A DNA stretch of 64,000 bases from NCBI GenBank assembly GCA_019454105.1, contig CP075364.1:2421362-2485361 (forward strand), written 5' to 3'. Origin of the DNA: Fimbriimonadaceae bacterium. Lineage in GTDB: Bacteria; Armatimonadota; Fimbriimonadia; Fimbriimonadales; Fimbriimonadaceae. The translations under genes were made by a program, and so were the position numbers. Below, in pieces: positions 49,684-56,780 of the stretch (its first letter is position 1; each line of letters opens with the position of its first letter). Below the pieces are notes generated by a model, which ran no database searches, had not been told where the DNA came from, and saw only the letters and a program-made list of their open reading frames with translations.

Positions 49684-50207
49684 GAAGTCTCCTCGGCCCT
49701 GAGAGCCGCCAAGCCCTTGAAGGCGGGGTGGCCTGGGTCGTCATCTTCTTCCGCGATCAAAGGCTCGCTCTGACACGGCCCGTCCCAACTGCCCGAGCAC
49801 AAGGTCTGTTGGGGCAAGTTGACGATCAGGCCCTGACGGACATAGTTGTCCACGATCAGGGCGTTCTGTTCGAACAGAGGCTCGGGCTCGTCGGCAACGA
49901 CATAGGCGAAGGAGTCATGGGAGTACGCGCTCGGCACCCCCTCGACCTGGAACTGGTCGTCCATCGTAAACTCGAGCGGCGATTCGACTGGAGAGCCGCA
50001 CCGGGCGCACTCCGTCACGATCCGAGTGGCAAATCGTGACTTGACAAGCAGGATGTTGCCTGTGCTCACGGCTTCGATCGTGCCACGGACTGGCTCGATG
50101 AGATCGAGATCCTCCTCGCGGGCCAATTCGGTCTCGATCTCGAACCGAAGCTTCTTGCCGGGGTGCTGAACGGCCTCGTTCAGCTCAAGCAACCCCTCGC
50201 GCTTCAT
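49680..50207 (-). CDS. yceD: YceD/DUF177 family protein
   Basis: 175 aa. The family takes part in accumulation of 23S rRNA. The zinc-type pair CARCGSPVESPLEFTMDDQF is the DUF177 core, followed by an acidic middle and a second Cys pair (LCSGSWDGPC), then AFKGLAALR, typical of the end. TAATAT on the minus strand (50219-50214) is 6 nt before the ATG. Confidence 0.88.
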   Translation of the reverse strand: MKREGLLELNEAVQHPGKKLRFEIETELAREEDLDLIEPVRGTIEAVSTGNILLVKSRFATRIVTECARCGSPVESPLEFTMDDQFQVEGVPSAYSHDSFAYVVADEPEPLFEQNALIVDNYVRQGLIVNLPQQTLCSGSWDGPCQSEPLIAEEDDDPGHPAFKGLAALRAEETS

Positions 50208-50403
50208 GGATCGATATTACCTACGAGCCTGCCCGGGCCAGACGAACCAGGCCCGGGAATTCGGGCGAACTCCTTTTCAGGTACGAAACGTCTCTACGGG
50301 TGTAGGACAGGACGTCCCCTCGCTTGACGCGCCCGCCGCCAGACTGCTATCCTCGCTATCTGATCGGGCTGCGCACGCGGGGTGGCCCTTCGAGGTGGAC
50401 TTT

Positions 50404-51678
50404 TTGAAGAACTGGATCGGTGCACTGCTACTCGGCGCTCTCATGGTCGGATGCTCAGGGGGAGACCTCGGCGCAGGGACGAACGGTGGGGGCGGAGGCT
50501 CTAACGGCGGAGACGGTGGCCGAGGCATCCCGACCGTCAACCTCGGCTCGACGGCCCAAGTCCAAGTTCTCTATCTTTCGGGTCAAGGGCGACGGGCTCC
50601 GGGCTCTCAGATAGCGGTCTTCAAGAACATCAAGGTCAGCAACAGCGTGACGGACTTTGCGCCGACGGCGCAGCAGGGCTCCTTCTCCCCGGTGCGGGTC
50701 CAGCTTGACGGGTACACGATCAACCAGCACACGTTCACCTACACTCTGGCCCCGCGAAGCACCAAGACGTTCACGCAGTTCCCGCTTGAGATCGCCCAAA
50801 TCGACGAAGAGAACCTGGGCGGAGGAACCACCACGCTCTTCTCTGGGCCGCCTGTCTTGATCCGGCCCTTCTTTAATATCAATCTGCCGCTGTTCGCCGG
50901 GCGACAGACCACGTTGACGGTCAACGTCAACGACGCGATGATCCAGTACGACTCGATCAACGGAGTCGCCTTTAACCGGACCCAGTTCGAGAACGAGAAC
51001 TACTCGCCGGGCGAGAACCGGATCAACGGCACCCTGAGCGACATGATCGCCTTCGATGTGAGCGGCATGCCGGCCAACGAACGGCCCAAGCTTCTCAACG
51101 GCCAGGTCGCCGACATCGTCCACTTCTCAGGCGACCTCATCGGAATCTCAAAAGGATTCGACGTCCCCGGCACGTTCAACCTCTTGAACCCGTCCGTCAT
51201 CGATTCGGGCCTTGTCAAGCGACCGGTCACGTTGCCCGGTCGAGAAGCCCCGGGCACCTACAGCGTGCAGGAGCCCGATCCGCGCGATCCGTTCGGCGGT
51301 GGATCCAAGATCACGGCTATGGCCGGTTACTACCGCCCGTATACCGAAGTCCTCTCGAACATCGGAGACTTCGCGATGGTCGTGATCCCGAACAGCCGTC
51401 TCGGCCCCGACAACCAGGTCGTGCTGTTCAATCGTGACGGCGCTGGCAAGATCAAAGCGATGTTCCAAGGAGTCGTCAGGTTCTCCGGGTCGACAAGCGG
51501 CACGATCGAGGTCTGGAGCATTGACCAGCTTCCTGCTGGAACCGCCAACAATCTAGTGAGCGGCACGCTGACGTTCGCTAAGTCCGACGGGATTGTCCGC
51601 TCGGGCACGTTCACCTTCCAGAACCCGCCGGCCGGATTCAAGTTTCCGACGACCGGCGGCTTCGTGGTGTTTCGCTGA
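50404..51678 (+). CDS. Large lipoprotein of unknown function, upstream of dop
   Basis: 424 aa from TTG 50404, chosen for the GAGGTGG site upstream and the resulting KNWIGALLLGALMVGC lipobox; GTG 50395 is an alternative. After Cys comes a Gly-rich linker (GTNGGGGGSNGG), then a beta-rich body with repeated Asn/Thr-rich strands (VNLGSTAQVQVLYL, TLTVNVNDAMIQYDS, FSGSTSGTIEVWSI). No family recognised. TATCCT at 50348-50353 may be the -10. It ends 3 bp before dop, so it may share the mRNA of the Pup genes, odd for a surface protein. Confidence 0.75.
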   Translation: MKNWIGALLLGALMVGCSGGDLGAGTNGGGGGSNGGDGGRGIPTVNLGSTAQVQVLYLSGQGRRAPGSQIAVFKNIKVSNSVTDFAPTAQQGSFSPVRVQLDGYTINQHTFTYTLAPRSTKTFTQFPLEIAQIDEENLGGGTTTLFSGPPVLIRPFFNINLPLFAGRQTTLTVNVNDAMIQYDSINGVAFNRTQFENENYSPGENRINGTLSDMIAFDVSGMPANERPKLLNGQVADIVHFSGDLIGISKGFDVPGTFNLLNPSVIDSGLVKRPVTLPGREAPGTYSVQEPDPRDPFGGGSKITAMAGYYRPYTEVLSNIGDFAMVVIPNSRLGPDNQVVLFNRDGAGKIKAMFQGVVRFSGSTSGTIEVWSIDQLPAGTANNLVSGTLTFAKSDGIVRSGTFTFQNPPAGFKFPTTGGFVVFR

Positions 51679-51681
51679 TCC

Positions 51682-53154
51682 ATGTCCGGCTGGATCGCCG
51701 GAATCGAAACGGAATACGGGCTCGCGGTCGATGGCCGCGGGCCCGAAGACCAAGTGGAGGACGCGACCGCGTTCGTCCGGTCGTTCCCTGGCCCAGCGTT
51801 CTTAGGTTGGGACTCCCGGCACGAGTTCCCGAGAGCCGACCTCCGAGGCTTTACGGTCGAAAGGCTCTCGACCGATCCGATCGACGCCGCCTTCGACGCC
51901 GGTCGCTCCCACGGATCGATCAGCGACATCCGGTCCGACAGGGTCCTGACCAACGGGGCCAGGCTCTACAACGATCACGGGCATCCTGAATACGCGACTC
52001 CAGAGTGCCTCAGCATCCAAGAATTGGTGCTCCACGACCTGGCCGGAGAGACCGTGTTGATGGAATGCGCCAGAGAGTTCGAAAAGACTTACGGGCGGCG
52101 CGCGACGGTCTACAAGAACAACTCTGACGGCCACGGGGCCAGCTATGGAACGCACGAGAGCTACCTGGCTCCACGCGCCTTGGGCTTTGAGACCCTCATG
52201 AGGACCGTCCTTCCTGTCCTTGTCGCCCGCACCCTCTTGTGCGGCGCAGGCAAAGTCGGAAGCGAGGCCGGGCCCTGGTGCGACTACCAACTCTCACAAA
52301 GAGCCGACTTCTTGGTCGAGTCCGCCAATGTCGAGACGCTCTATCGTCGGCCCGTCCTCAACACCCGCGACGAGCCGCACTCCTCGGGACAAGACTGGAT
52401 TCGGCTCCATGTGATCTCAGGAGACGCGAACCGGATCGCCGCGGTGACGGGGCTGAAGGTGGGTTTGGTCAAACTAGCACTAGCTCTGGCGGCCGAGGGG
52501 CGTTGCCCAACTTGGTCTCTTACGGACGCGCCTCGATCTTTCGCCCATGTGAGCAGGACCCTGGACGGGGATGCCCGGATCGAAACCAGCGGCGGATCTT
52601 GGACGACCGCGAGGCATGTCTTGGCAGATCTTTGCGAGAGCGCGTGCCGACACCTTGGCCCTGGAGAACTTCAAGACACGGCCCACCTGGCGGCGGAGCA
52701 ACTGGACTTGTTCGCTAGCGACCGAGACAAGTTTGCAGAGCGTTGCGACTGGGCCGCCAAACTGAAGCTTCTAGATCAGTACCGGGAAGTCACCGGAGCT
52801 GGCTGGCGGGATCCAGGGCTCAAGGCCTGCGACCTTGGCTATCACAACATCGACCCGGCCGAGAGCCTGTTCGACCCTCTGGTCGGTGCCGGAATGATCG
52901 AGGCCCAACCGGATCCAAGCTTCGTCGCCATGAGACGGACGGCAGTCTTTGAACCCACTCGGGCTCGGGCCCGCTCTCTTGCGGTCTCCCAATTCGCAGC
53001 CGATCTGGAGACGGTCTCCTGGGGTGTCCTCGTGTTCAAACACGAAGGCAGCGCCACGCAAGTGCGACTGGCCCCAGAAAAGAGCTATCCTGAGTCACTG
53101 GCGCAAGCCAAAAGCGTAGAATCGTACATCGAACGATTGGAGGCCTTGACGTGA
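51682..53154 (+). CDS. dop: Dop-type depupylase/Pup deamidase
   Basis: 490 aa of the Dop/PafA carboxylate-amine ligase fold. IETEYG at 8-13, NGARLYNDHGHPEY with the catalytic Asp about residue 98, YKNNSDGHGASYGTHESYL, QLSQRADF and NTRDEPH. Two points favour Dop over PafA: an insertion of about 50 residues (roughly 30-80) matching the Dop loop, and DHxHPEY instead of DVGSHPEY. Dop deamidates a C-terminal Gln of Pup and removes Pup from proteins. The gene overlaps pup by GTGA. Confidence 0.9.
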   Translation: MSGWIAGIETEYGLAVDGRGPEDQVEDATAFVRSFPGPAFLGWDSRHEFPRADLRGFTVERLSTDPIDAAFDAGRSHGSISDIRSDRVLTNGARLYNDHGHPEYATPECLSIQELVLHDLAGETVLMECAREFEKTYGRRATVYKNNSDGHGASYGTHESYLAPRALGFETLMRTVLPVLVARTLLCGAGKVGSEAGPWCDYQLSQRADFLVESANVETLYRRPVLNTRDEPHSSGQDWIRLHVISGDANRIAAVTGLKVGLVKLALALAAEGRCPTWSLTDAPRSFAHVSRTLDGDARIETSGGSWTTARHVLADLCESACRHLGPGELQDTAHLAAEQLDLFASDRDKFAERCDWAAKLKLLDQYREVTGAGWRDPGLKACDLGYHNIDPAESLFDPLVGAGMIEAQPDPSFVAMRRTAVFEPTRARARSLAVSQFAADLETVSWGVLVFKHEGSATQVRLAPEKSYPESLAQAKSVESYIERLEALT

Positions 53155-53336
53155 TCATCCGCTCTGACCGAACACTTCGCCGCGAGGCCGACGAGCCGGC
53201 CCGCAAGCCAGGCGAGGACACCGGGCCTGGCAAGCCTGACATCGGCCGGCCCGAAGCCCCTGACGAATTGACCCGAAGGCTTCGGCAGATCGACCCCGAC
53301 AAGGCGACAAGGTACCGACAACGATCCGGCCAATGA
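53151..53336 (+). CDS. pup: Pup-like protein modifier (UBact type)
   Basis: 61 aa from GTG 53151. Disordered, with Pro/Glu/Asp-rich N-terminal half (EDTGPGKPDIGRPEAP), a helix (DELTRRLRQIDPDKATRY) and the end RYRQRSGQ. The final Gly-Gln is the conjugation site: Gln must be deamidated to Glu. RYRQR(S/T)G with Q or E is the signature of UBact, the Pup-like modifier reported from several Gram-negative phyla. It overlaps dop (GTGA) and prcB (ATGA). Targets would be degraded by the proteasome. Confidence 0.92.
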   Translation: MIIRSDRTLRREADEPARKPGEDTGPGKPDIGRPEAPDELTRRLRQIDPDKATRYRQRSGQ

Positions 53337-54085
53337 CACCTGAAGGGCAGCGCACGTTCGCCGAGCTCGTCGGATACTCGCCCGCCCCGGCAGCTTCTTC
53401 CGAGGCTCACGGAACGACTGTGTTGGCAGTCCGATATGACAAGGGCGCGCTTGTCCTGGCCGACCGCCGGGCGACCATGGGCAACCTGGTCATGTTCGAG
53501 AAAGCGGAGAAGATCCTGGCGCTCGACGACACCACGGTCGTCGCCGTCAGCGGCGCCTATGCCCGGTCGCTCGAAGTCGGCCGGTATCTGCGCCACGCTT
53601 TCAAATACTACGAGAGGCTCAACCTGGTCGAAATATCGACAGAAGGGAAGCTGATGGAGATCTCACGGGCGCTGCAGAACAATCTGCCCATGGCTCAAGA
53701 GGGCGGGTTGTTCCTGCCGATCGCGGCTGCCTACGACCGAAAGGCAGGATCTTACGGCGTCTACTTCTTTGACGCGGCCGGGGCCCGGTTTCAATCCGCG
53801 GACTACGCCTGTGCTGGTTCCGGTTCAGAGCGCATCCGTGGCGTCTTTGAGTACGTGATCCGCCAGAAGGGCCCCTGGTCCGCTCGGACTCGCGACGAGG
53901 CCCTCACCGAGGGACTCACGATGCTGGCCATAGCGGCCGAACTCGATTCCGCCACCGGTGGGTTCCAAAAGGCGCCGCCCCTAGTCTTCGACCTCACCGA
54001 TCAAGGCGTCACCGAGGTTGGCCCGGCTGAATTGAAACCCTTGGCGGAGAGCTTGTTGCAAGCCGGATCCGCCCACTGGACTTGA
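53333..54085 (+). CDS. prcB: 20S proteasome beta subunit
   Basis: 250 aa. A 27-residue propeptide ends in HG, and autocleavage exposes Thr28 (TTVLAV). In mature numbering T1, D17 (LADRR) and K33 (EKAEKI) are in place, and SGSERI follows in the nucleophile region, so it should be active. It is the last gene of the cluster; prcA, pafA and the ATPase (mpa/arc) are not here, and the next gene is on the other strand. Confidence 0.94.
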   Translation: MTPEGQRTFAELVGYSPAPAASSEAHGTTVLAVRYDKGALVLADRRATMGNLVMFEKAEKILALDDTTVVAVSGAYARSLEVGRYLRHAFKYYERLNLVEISTEGKLMEISRALQNNLPMAQEGGLFLPIAAAYDRKAGSYGVYFFDAAGARFQSADYACAGSGSERIRGVFEYVIRQKGPWSARTRDEALTEGLTMLAIAAELDSATGGFQKAPPLVFDLTDQGVTEVGPAELKPLAESLLQAGSAHWT

Positions 54086-54104
54086 CCCGGCCTGCAAAGT
54101 GGTC

Positions 54105-54611
54105 TCAGAACCGGTAGCCGATGTAGATTCCGGCGGCTGTGGCACGGGCCCCGCGAGCCGAGTCGCTGTGGGTCAAAGTCCCTTCCGCAAACAGGTTCCG
54201 ACCCAGTTCGACACCGTAGCCGACGCGGCCAGCCAAGACGGTTTGTGACTGATTGATGTCGACGATCGCGATCCCTGCCCCGAAGAACACGTACGAACGC
54301 AGGTCGTCCTCGCCGCGAGGCTTGGCATAAAACCTCTGGTTGAGCATGATCGGGAAAACGTTGCCCTTGGCGCCGCTTCCAGACTTGCCGAACCAGTCGG
54401 CCGAGACGGTCAGTTCCCCGTTGGGAAGCAACGTCGTGTTCGTGAAGTAGTCAACGCCCACGCCGATGTAATTGTTGGCCACATCGCGCATGGCGTTGTT
54501 GATGGGAAAGACCCAACCCAAGCGGACGGCCAGGTTGACCGGTTGCTCGATCCCTTGGGCCGAACCGAAACTAGCGGCACCGACGGCCGCAATCAGCAGA
54601 AGATTCCTCAT
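54105..54611 (-). CDS. Outer-membrane beta-barrel protein
   Basis: 168 aa. Signal peptide MRNLLLIAAVGAASFGSAQ, then alternating amphipathic strands (VNLAVRLGWVFP, ELTVSADWFG, SYVFFGAGIAIVD, AGIYIGYRF) and terminal Phe, the C-terminal beta-signal read by the BAM complex. Too short for a large porin; an eight-stranded barrel is likely. Confirms a diderm envelope. It converges on prcB. Confidence 0.82.
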   Translation of the reverse strand: MRNLLLIAAVGAASFGSAQGIEQPVNLAVRLGWVFPINNAMRDVANNYIGVGVDYFTNTTLLPNGELTVSADWFGKSGSGAKGNVFPIMLNQRFYAKPRGEDDLRSYVFFGAGIAIVDINQSQTVLAGRVGYGVELGRNLFAEGTLTHSDSARGARATAAGIYIGYRF

Positions 54612-54696
54612 TCGTCTCCTCCGTGAGGTCTCACGGGCCTGATCCTGCCAGGCTCCGCCATTCTACTTGGCTCCGGACCATGCATGTCGGCGCCGG

Positions 54697-54702
54697 TAGA
54701 CT
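54697..54702 (+). promoter_or_regulatory. -10 box of glyS
   Basis: TAGACT ends 8 nt before ATG 54711, supporting that start over the in-frame ATG at 54684. Confidence 0.45.
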
Positions 54703-54710
54703 CCCGGGCT

Positions 54711-56780
54711 ATGCCAGACCTTCTCTTTGAGTTGGGATGCGAGGAGCTTCCCGCTTCCCAAGTGCGCGGAGCGGCCCGACAACTCGCGGCCAAAATTGCC
54801 TCCGGCCTCAAAGACGCAGGCATCGACCCCGGACCCCCGACGGTCTACTCGACCCCCCGCAGGCTGATTGTCGGGGTCGACGGTCTGCCCGCCAGACAAC
54901 CCGACCAGGAGAAAGTGTCTCGCGGGCCCGCCGTCAAGGCCGCGTTCGATCCGGAGGGCAAACCCACCAAGGCCCTCGAGGGATTTTGCCGCGGGCAGGG
55001 AGCCGACTTGTCCCAAGTCACGGTCGAAGGTGAGCACGTCTGGCTGAAGTTCACCGTCGCTGGCCGCCCGACCCATGAACTCCTTCCCGAGATCCTTGAA
55101 TCCGCTGTGCGCGGCGTCAACTTTGGCAAGACGATGCGGTGGGGGCACGGTACGCTTCGGTTCTCCCGCCCGATCCGTTGGATCCTGGCCGCGTTCGACG
55201 CTAGCCGAGTGCCGATGCAGATCGAGGGAGTCGCCAGCGGACTCCTCAGCCGTGGCCACCGACACCGCTCGCCTGAACCCTTTGAGGCGACCAGCCTGGA
55301 ACAACTCGTTCAAGGTCTTCGCCAACGATCGGTCGAGCCTGACCCCGATGTTCGGGAACGCGCGATCCGCGAGGGAGCCCGGTCGTGCGCTCAAGGCACG
55401 CCCGATCTCTCCGATTCTCTGGTGGAGGAGAACGCCTTTCTCGGAGAATGGCCCGAACCTCTGCAGGGTGAGTTCCCTGAAGCGTTCCTGGAACTCCCGG
55501 AGCCGGTGTTGGTGACTGTGATGGCCAAGCACGAGCGCTTTTTTCCGGTCCGGGACTCGGGCGGCGCCCTGACCAACCGGTTCGTCTCAGTGCGGCATGG
55601 AGGCGAGGAAGCGGTCGTGCGAGAGGGCAACACCTGGGTGTTGATCGCTCGCTTCAATGACGCTCGGTTCTTTTATGACGACGACTCAAAAGGCTCGCTC
55701 GAGGACTTCTTAGAAAAGACGGCGGGCATGACGTTCCAAGAGAGGCTCGGCACAGTCCGCAGCCGTGCCGACCGTCTCGCAGATCTTGCGGGGTTCGTCG
55801 CCGAATGGGCGGGAGAGGATCTCGCTGTCCAACGTGAAGCGTCACAAGCCGGTCGCTTGGCCAAGGCCGATCTGACCACCGGGGTGGTCGGAGAACTGGA
55901 CGAACTTCAAGGAGTCGTCGGAGGAATTTACGCCCGTCGTGAGGGCCTGCCCGAGGAAGTCGCCGTCGCCATCGAATCCCAGTACGATTTGGCCAGGCTC
56001 AAGTCGCTGGCGGCCAAGGGAATCGGCCCGGCTTTTTGCCTCGGGTTGGCCGACCAGATCGACAAACTCGCCGGTTATCTGGGTGTCGGGTTCGAACCGT
56101 CTGGCACGAGCGACCCCTTTGGCCTTCGACGGGCCGGAACGGTCCTCATCGAGCTGGCTTGGGCCGCGCCGAGAGCCCTGCCTAGTCTTGACCCCCTGTT
56201 CGAGAAAGCCTTGTCAGGCTACTTGGGCCAGGGTGTCTCGGTCGATTCGTCTGCGGCCATGTCCGCCTTGCGACGGCTGTTGCGCGGTCGGTACGAGGCC
56301 CTCCTTGATGACTTTCGCTACGACGTGCGAGACGGGGCCATCGCGTTCGAAGACCGGCTCACGGCTCCCAGGCAAGTGCTCTTCCAAGCCAAGGCGCTCG
56401 CATGCTTGGCCGACGATGCAGATCTGGTGCAGACGGCGACCCGGCCCGCAAACATCGTCGCCGCCGCCCAGAAGAAAGGGCTGGCCCTCGGTTCGGCCTG
56501 GCCGGACCTGAGCGACCTTGAGAGCCCCGAGGGAAGGGCCCTCGCCGAGGCTGTCACGACACACGGGGCCCTGGCGCTTGCCGCCGCTGCCGCCGAGGAC
56601 GTGAGGGCCTTGGCCGACTCTTTCCGCCCTCTTGCTGCACCCATCAATGCCTTCTTCGATTCGACCATGGTCATGGTCGATGAGGCTCGAGTGCGGGACG
56701 CCCGACTCGCCTTGCTAGGCAGGACGGCGGACGTCTTCAGCCTGGCCGGGGACTTTACTCGGCTGGTCGCCGGGGCCTGA
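54711..56780 (+). CDS. glyS: Glycyl-tRNA synthetase beta subunit
   Basis: 689 aa. Starts PDLLFELGCEELPAS, the canonical N-terminus. It contains the HD-like helical region and the C-terminal anticodon-binding part (FFDSTMVMVDE). The beta subunit binds tRNA and needs the catalytic alpha subunit (glyQ), which is not adjacent; in most genomes glyQ precedes glyS. Complete. Confidence 0.94.
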   Translation: MPDLLFELGCEELPASQVRGAARQLAAKIASGLKDAGIDPGPPTVYSTPRRLIVGVDGLPARQPDQEKVSRGPAVKAAFDPEGKPTKALEGFCRGQGADLSQVTVEGEHVWLKFTVAGRPTHELLPEILESAVRGVNFGKTMRWGHGTLRFSRPIRWILAAFDASRVPMQIEGVASGLLSRGHRHRSPEPFEATSLEQLVQGLRQRSVEPDPDVRERAIREGARSCAQGTPDLSDSLVEENAFLGEWPEPLQGEFPEAFLELPEPVLVTVMAKHERFFPVRDSGGALTNRFVSVRHGGEEAVVREGNTWVLIARFNDARFFYDDDSKGSLEDFLEKTAGMTFQERLGTVRSRADRLADLAGFVAEWAGEDLAVQREASQAGRLAKADLTTGVVGELDELQGVVGGIYARREGLPEEVAVAIESQYDLARLKSLAAKGIGPAFCLGLADQIDKLAGYLGVGFEPSGTSDPFGLRRAGTVLIELAWAAPRALPSLDPLFEKALSGYLGQGVSVDSSAAMSALRRLLRGRYEALLDDFRYDVRDGAIAFEDRLTAPRQVLFQAKALACLADDADLVQTATRPANIVAAAQKKGLALGSAWPDLSDLESPEGRALAEAVTTHGALALAAAAAEDVRALADSFRPLAAPINAFFDSTMVMVDEARVRDARLALLGRTADVFSLAGDFTRLVAGA

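Follow-up and report, generated by a model that had tools for sequence, protein, structure and literature searches.

The observations presented here concern a short row of genes in the chromosome of a Fimbriimonadaceae bacterium, within a stretch of 64,000 nucleotides (the window; C1:2421362-2485361 of a single contig of 2,741,041 bases). The row consists of a lipoprotein gene, dop, the gene of the Pup-like modifier UBact, and prcB, which encodes a proteasome beta subunit. Judged from gene content, the UBact-proteasome system to which these genes belong is complete; its genes are dispersed, with prcA, pafA and the ATPase gene hundreds of kb from the row, and not lost. It is rather likely that dop, UBact and prcB are the later genes of an operon that begins with the gene of an envelope lipoprotein specific to this family, the two being tied together by shared transcription. 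The underlying system is already known. What is new is the variant, in which dispersed genes are combined with a lipoprotein-headed dop-UBact-prcB row. The features of the locus are as follows.

50324 to 50353, plus strand: promoter-like sequence TTGACG-18-TATCCT, the second hexamer preceded by TG, some 50 bp ahead of the lipoprotein start; the probable operon promoter.
50404 to 51678, plus strand: lipoprotein gene, TTG start, 424 amino acids, lipobox ending in GC at residues 16-17, predicted all-beta.
51682 to 53154, plus strand: dop (depupylase/deamidase of the Pup-ligase fold), ATG start, 3 bp after the lipoprotein stop.
53151 to 53336, plus strand: UBact (Pup-like modifier of 61 amino acids), GTG start, GTGA overlap with dop, C-terminus GQ.
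53333 to 54085, plus strand: prcB (codes for a proteasome beta subunit that has a propeptide and T1/D17/K33), ATG start, ATGA overlap with UBact.
54105 to 54611, minus strand: the next open reading frame after prcB, on the strand opposite to the four-gene row.

The dop product matches the Pfam family Pup_ligase (PF03136) with an E-value of 1.2e-117, and the NCBIfam model of Dop scores higher (318.6 bits) than that of PafA (243.8 bits), both scores being under the curated cut-offs. UBact is recognized by PF20513 (2e-16) and NF033388 (9.5e-16), each above its cut-off; it has the UBact motif and a terminal GQ, the C-terminus being RYRQRSGQ. The prcB product matches PF00227 (5.7e-23) and scores 114.8 bits with TIGR03690, under the cut-off. 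Past the propeptide its sequence is TTVLAVRYDKGALVLADRRATMGNLVMFEKAEK, with T1, D17 and K33 in place. As the NCBIfam equivalog scores are under their cut-offs, the names Dop and PrcB are based on the best-scoring model, on Pfam and on gene context. An earlier, sequence-only reading of this DNA had reported dop, a Pup-like gene ending RYRQRSGQ, prcB with T1/D17/K33, the GTGA and ATGA overlaps, and a lipoprotein gene ending 3 bp before dop, with a minus-strand gene and not prcA, pafA or the ATPase gene following. Direct reading confirms all of this (lipoprotein stop at 51678, dop start at 51682, minus-strand frame at 54105-54611).

No prcA, pafA or ATPase gene lies beside dop-UBact-prcB in the window, and all three types are found elsewhere on the contig. 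The other proteasome gene of the contig, at 1,831,366, has PrcA as its best model (TIGR03691, 90.1 bits, not reaching the cut-off of 139.05), and a second Pup-ligase gene (PF03136) at 627,550 has PafA as its best NCBIfam model, under the equivalog cut-off. A pup-type ATPase gene at 1,839,330 scores 452 bits with TIGR03689, short of a cut-off (504.75) that is passed by none of the 98 genomes of the class; its product has both proteasomal OB domains and the AAA domain according to Pfam. The prcA and ATPase genes are about 7-8 kb apart, and the parts of the system occupy three chromosome regions. The genome encodes alpha and beta subunits, a Dop-like and a PafA-like enzyme, both of the Pup-ligase fold, and a proteasomal AAA ATPase. 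The sequence-only reading had expected the missing parts elsewhere, where the genome search found them, or else a particle made of beta subunits only, and had called the locus reduced. The idea of a reduced system with a beta-only core draws solely on the absence of prcA, pafA and the ATPase gene from the surroundings of the locus (0, 0 and 0 of the 70 family loci, in the flanks defined below), but genes of the PrcA, PafA and ATPase types are all on the same contig, which makes this explanation practically untenable. The locus is also not reduced in the sense of genes lost, all parts being present and merely dispersed. A prcA gene just beyond the usual spacing is ruled out by its coordinates, which place it about 643 kb away.

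Two observations were made on these distant genes. At 25 bp ahead of prcA is a short gene (L011:4646-5212) whose product has a 5'-nucleotidase C-terminal domain (PF02872), and a homologue is found near prcA in two of the five relatives compared. The pup-type ATPase ends in at least two aliphatic residues in most of 22 genomes (own genome L013:3280-4932; L142, L240-L259), examples being RRSVV, KSVI and RNVI. The tail of Mpa is of the QYL type, and the aliphatic tail may reflect a different mode of proteasome docking.

Among the 98 class genomes, UBact is found in 89, a proteasome-family match in 94, a Pup ligase in 94 and a strong pup-type ATPase in 92. For 88 of the 89 genomes, the 89th being that of the window itself, flanks of up to 6 kb were fetched on either side of UBact; 70 of these loci are from Fimbriimonadaceae and 18 from sister families. 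A contiguous locus, with prcA next to prcB and with pafA and the ATPase gene close by, is seen neither in the window nor in any of the family loci (0/70). The flanks of the sister-family loci contain prcA in 12 cases, often next after prcB, pafA in 4 and the ATPase gene in none, and in four of them (L060, L063, L078 and L113) dop, UBact, prcB, prcA and pafA are all within the flanks, in one row where the order is displayed. The layout of the window is the norm of its family, and it is most simply read as a derived state. Other properties of the locus vary. UBact ends in Q at 52 of the family loci and in E at the other 18, while at the sister-family loci E (12) outnumbers Q (6); as the final residue differs among close relatives, the need for deamidation by Dop would differ too. 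While dop and UBact are adjacent in most loci, a gap of about 2 kb separates them in L115 (G056) and L116 (G055), where the lipoprotein gene stays with dop. Two family genomes of 1.5 Mb (G058 and G059) have neither UBact, proteasome, Pup ligase or pup-type ATPase nor the lipoprotein.

A search profile built up from the lipoprotein of the window finds its gene immediately before dop in 66 of the 70 family loci and in none of the 18 sister-family loci; the window has the gene in this position too. In an alignment search of 255 genomes of the phylum, full-length homologues are present in 71 of the 76 family genomes and in no other family; outside the family, 14 genomes exceed the threshold with short matches near the N-terminus only. 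In 61 of the 64 measured loci no more than 46 nt separate the lipoprotein stop from the GIETEYG-like motif of Dop, two of the 66 being unmeasured as their motif differs. By hand count the gene order is also seen in 53 of 80 titled loci, many of them from the same genomes, the remainder including sister families and cut contigs. The four-gene arrangement is far beyond chance and its order recurs in relatives. The sequence-only reading had left room for a chance neighbour or, as the alternative, for a possible link of envelope stress to pupylation. The conserved, tightly spaced position upstream of dop speaks against the former, and a random neighbour is ruled out by the contrast of 66/70 with 0/18 together with the confinement of the homologues to the family.

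Four family loci do not have the lipoprotein in this position. In L073 (G057) dop is cut by the contig end, and the lipoprotein gene stands near the end of a different short contig; in L083 (G038) the lipoprotein gene is unlinked; the other two are L114 and L124, described below. Across the 76 family genomes, both UBact and the lipoprotein are present in 69, UBact only in 2, the lipoprotein only in 2 and neither in 3 (Fisher p 0.0014, from a hand-counted table). This association is weak evidence, as the genomes are related, and as fragmented assemblies are among the missing cases, together with the two 1.5-Mb genomes that have no system. As to copies elsewhere, the lipoprotein gene of G038 (L142, C1:331000-341000) and the proteasomal ATPase gene share a strand and are some 0.95 kb apart, separated by an open reading frame of the other strand; this proximity is not repeated in G039 of the same genus and may be due to chance. 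G060 and G061 have a second, diverged lipoprotein copy away from the proteasome genes (in G060, L143, C1:384000-394000).

A promoter scan of the region gave three matches against a shuffle mean of 0.4. The best is the one upstream of the lipoprotein gene, the other two being inside that gene and inside the minus-strand frame. Of 67 family sequences, 35 have the -10 pattern TGNTATNNT in the 250 bp that precede the lipoprotein Cys codon (shuffle mean 2.42, maximum 9), and 34 of the 35 sites are 106-142 bp before that codon. As the pattern is not rare in the window as a whole (4 matches, 3.24 expected), the signal lies in its fixed place in the relatives. From 50150 to 54750 the coding strand shows no terminator-like site, and spacing measurements leave no space for another promoter between the lipoprotein gene and dop in most loci. 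From the spacing, the promoter position and the absence of a terminator we infer that the four genes are co-transcribed, the lipoprotein gene probably heading the operon.

The lipoprotein of the window reads as an N-terminal signal followed by the lipobox LMVGC and the conserved cysteine. Cys17 is kept in 66 of 67 aligned members, the exception (L090) being a matter of start choice, and the invariant residues are G16, C17, G19, G60, R64, R167, N199, D213, G243, D244, P329 and G356, in a family where identity falls to 25%. The window protein has no Pfam or NCBIfam match; a Pfam search with 38 aligned members gave only two single-member matches (E 0.00088 and 0.075), and a profile search of the PDB gave nothing better than E 0.4. 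AlphaFold2 predicts for the mature protein a disordered glycine-rich start followed by a nearly all-beta structure (predicted local distance difference test, pLDDT, 89.4; predicted template-modelling score, pTM, 0.86). Foldseek searches with this model and with the C-terminal part gave no match at E <= 0.001. VIA aligns the whole model with TbpB at Z up to 6.3 (C-terminal part, 91 residues aligned, root-mean-square deviation 4.7) and with a fimbrial protein at 5.6 (N-terminal part); the C-terminal part modelled alone (pLDDT 91.4) reaches Z 7.6 with designed barrels and 6.2 with TbpB. Kinship with TbpB, avidin or designed barrels is not claimed, as all are tied under Z 8 and have no Foldseek or sequence match; for a TbpB-like or calycin-like barrel fold, too, the Z-scores are level with those of unrelated barrels. 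The C-terminal part resembles TbpB and other small beta-barrels in arrangement only, and this predicted likeness is a common arrangement that gives no function. Behind prcB, the minus-strand frame has the look of an outer-membrane protein (Phage_OMP, E 0.0058, under the cut-off), and a homologue of it lies in the fetched flanks of 31 of the 70 family loci.

Deamidation by Dop, ligation by PafA, and degradation by the ATPase with the PrcA/PrcB core are established chemistry of this family of systems. By combining it with the gene content, the working of the system may be described in outline. Dop would deamidate the C-terminal glutamine of UBact, and PafA would attach UBact to lysines. The ATPase would then deliver the tagged proteins into the PrcA/PrcB core, and Dop would recycle UBact. 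The lipoprotein would take the usual path of lipoproteins, being exported, anchored by its lipid and active in the envelope, while the common promoter would tie the supply of the UBact-processing genes and of one proteasome subunit to the conditions under which the lipoprotein is made. As an exported lipoprotein cannot meet cytoplasmic enzymes, shared transcription is favoured over physical partnership, and transcription from one promoter is most likely the reason for the linkage.

Several observations weigh against an operon held together in this way. The exact -10 pattern is absent from 32 of the 67 family sequences. Two family loci have dop-UBact-prcB with no lipoprotein found (L124 of G074, and L114 of G073, where only some 650 bases precede the dop frame). 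In G038, G039 and G018 the lipoprotein gene has yceD close by but is not followed by dop, the search of the class genomes having found no UBact in G018 and G039. The sister families have the system without the lipoprotein at all 18 loci. Divergent upstream neighbours are also widely kept, yceD in 55 and plsX in 54 of the 70 family loci; glyS is kept in 19. Part of the lipoprotein-dop conservation is for this reason general conservation of gene order. The link is separable, not obligatory.

The same facts can be turned into an explanation of their own. An ancestor of the family might have put dop-UBact-prcB behind an existing lipoprotein gene, and dependence on its promoter might since have kept the order, the lipoprotein having no role in proteolysis. 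The promoter precedes the lipoprotein gene and most loci have no room for another between the genes; in G038 the lipoprotein gene stayed with yceD-plsX while dop-UBact-prcB stands behind genes that look like rplM-rpsI; and the sister families do without the lipoprotein. Such neutral sharing of a promoter is a substantial possibility, short of an even chance. It accounts less well for the loci in which other neighbours were lost, as the lipoprotein-dop pair survives in 11 of the 15 loci whose flanks, on contigs that are in some cases short, lack both yceD and plsX; for adjacency in 66 of 70 loci across proteins down to 25% identity; and for a lipoprotein that, within the phylum, is confined to the one family with such a layout. 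A stronger idea is that the lipoprotein is a dedicated envelope partner, one operon coupling pupylation to envelope condition, be it in sensing, in repair or in the turnover of proteins bound there. This we regard as possible and rather doubtful. It is improbable that the lipoprotein precursor is itself a cytoplasmic substrate or adaptor, blocked lipoprotein export being sensed or cleared by UBact tagging. The tight gene coupling and the membrane-linked Pup systems of other lineages mentioned in excerpts of PMC2588565 could be cited for it, but the alignment has no invariant lysine, the mature lipoprotein is expected outside the cytoplasm, and its gene persists without dop in three genomes.

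The order dop-pup-prcB of the window is that of actinobacteria. Excerpts of two papers describe the actinobacterial Pup locus as encoding the ligase, the depupylase, the ATPase and both proteasome subunits close together (PMC6466877; PMC2588565). The parts are the same here, whereas prcA, pafA and the ATPase gene are far off and the ATPase tail differs. According to the same excerpts of Iyer et al. 2008 (PMC2588565), Pup and the ligases were neighbours in all lineages then known, usually with proteasome genes nearby, and in two lineages, Plesiocystis and Rhodopirellula, the Pup systems are linked to a membrane protein, the ligases having four transmembrane segments and the genes being unlinked from those of the proteasome. 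Those systems, as excerpted, likewise associate Pup genes with a gene for an envelope or membrane protein. They differ from the present one, in which prcB is part of the putative operon and the ligases, judged from the span of their PF03136 alignments (Dop residues 5-448 to model positions 2-438, PafA residues 9-461 to 1-440), show no large insertion of the four-transmembrane kind. According to a passage of PMC7947786, draft genomes from Armatimonadetes and other such phyla have Dop and PafA homologues only very sporadically; against that picture, a Pup ligase is found here in 94 of 98 genomes of one class. Among the open-access papers listed in literature searches, no title or abstract opening describes a lipoprotein-dop linkage.

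UBact, Dop, PafA, PrcB, PrcA and the ATPase are all present here, as in the other UBact-proteasome systems of Gram-negative bacteria, which were reportedly the subject of Lehmann et al. 2017 (Biochemical and Biophysical Research Communications). The system described here differs from them in being spread over three chromosome regions and in having dop-UBact-prcB behind a family-specific lipoprotein gene. With such a dispersed layout, searches for one contiguous locus would wrongly score the system as incomplete. To our knowledge, there is no settled answer as to what Gram-negative bacteria use the Pup/UBact-proteasome for. A lipoprotein found family-wide at the head of the probable operon offers a testable hint that in this lineage the UBact system may be used together with the envelope.

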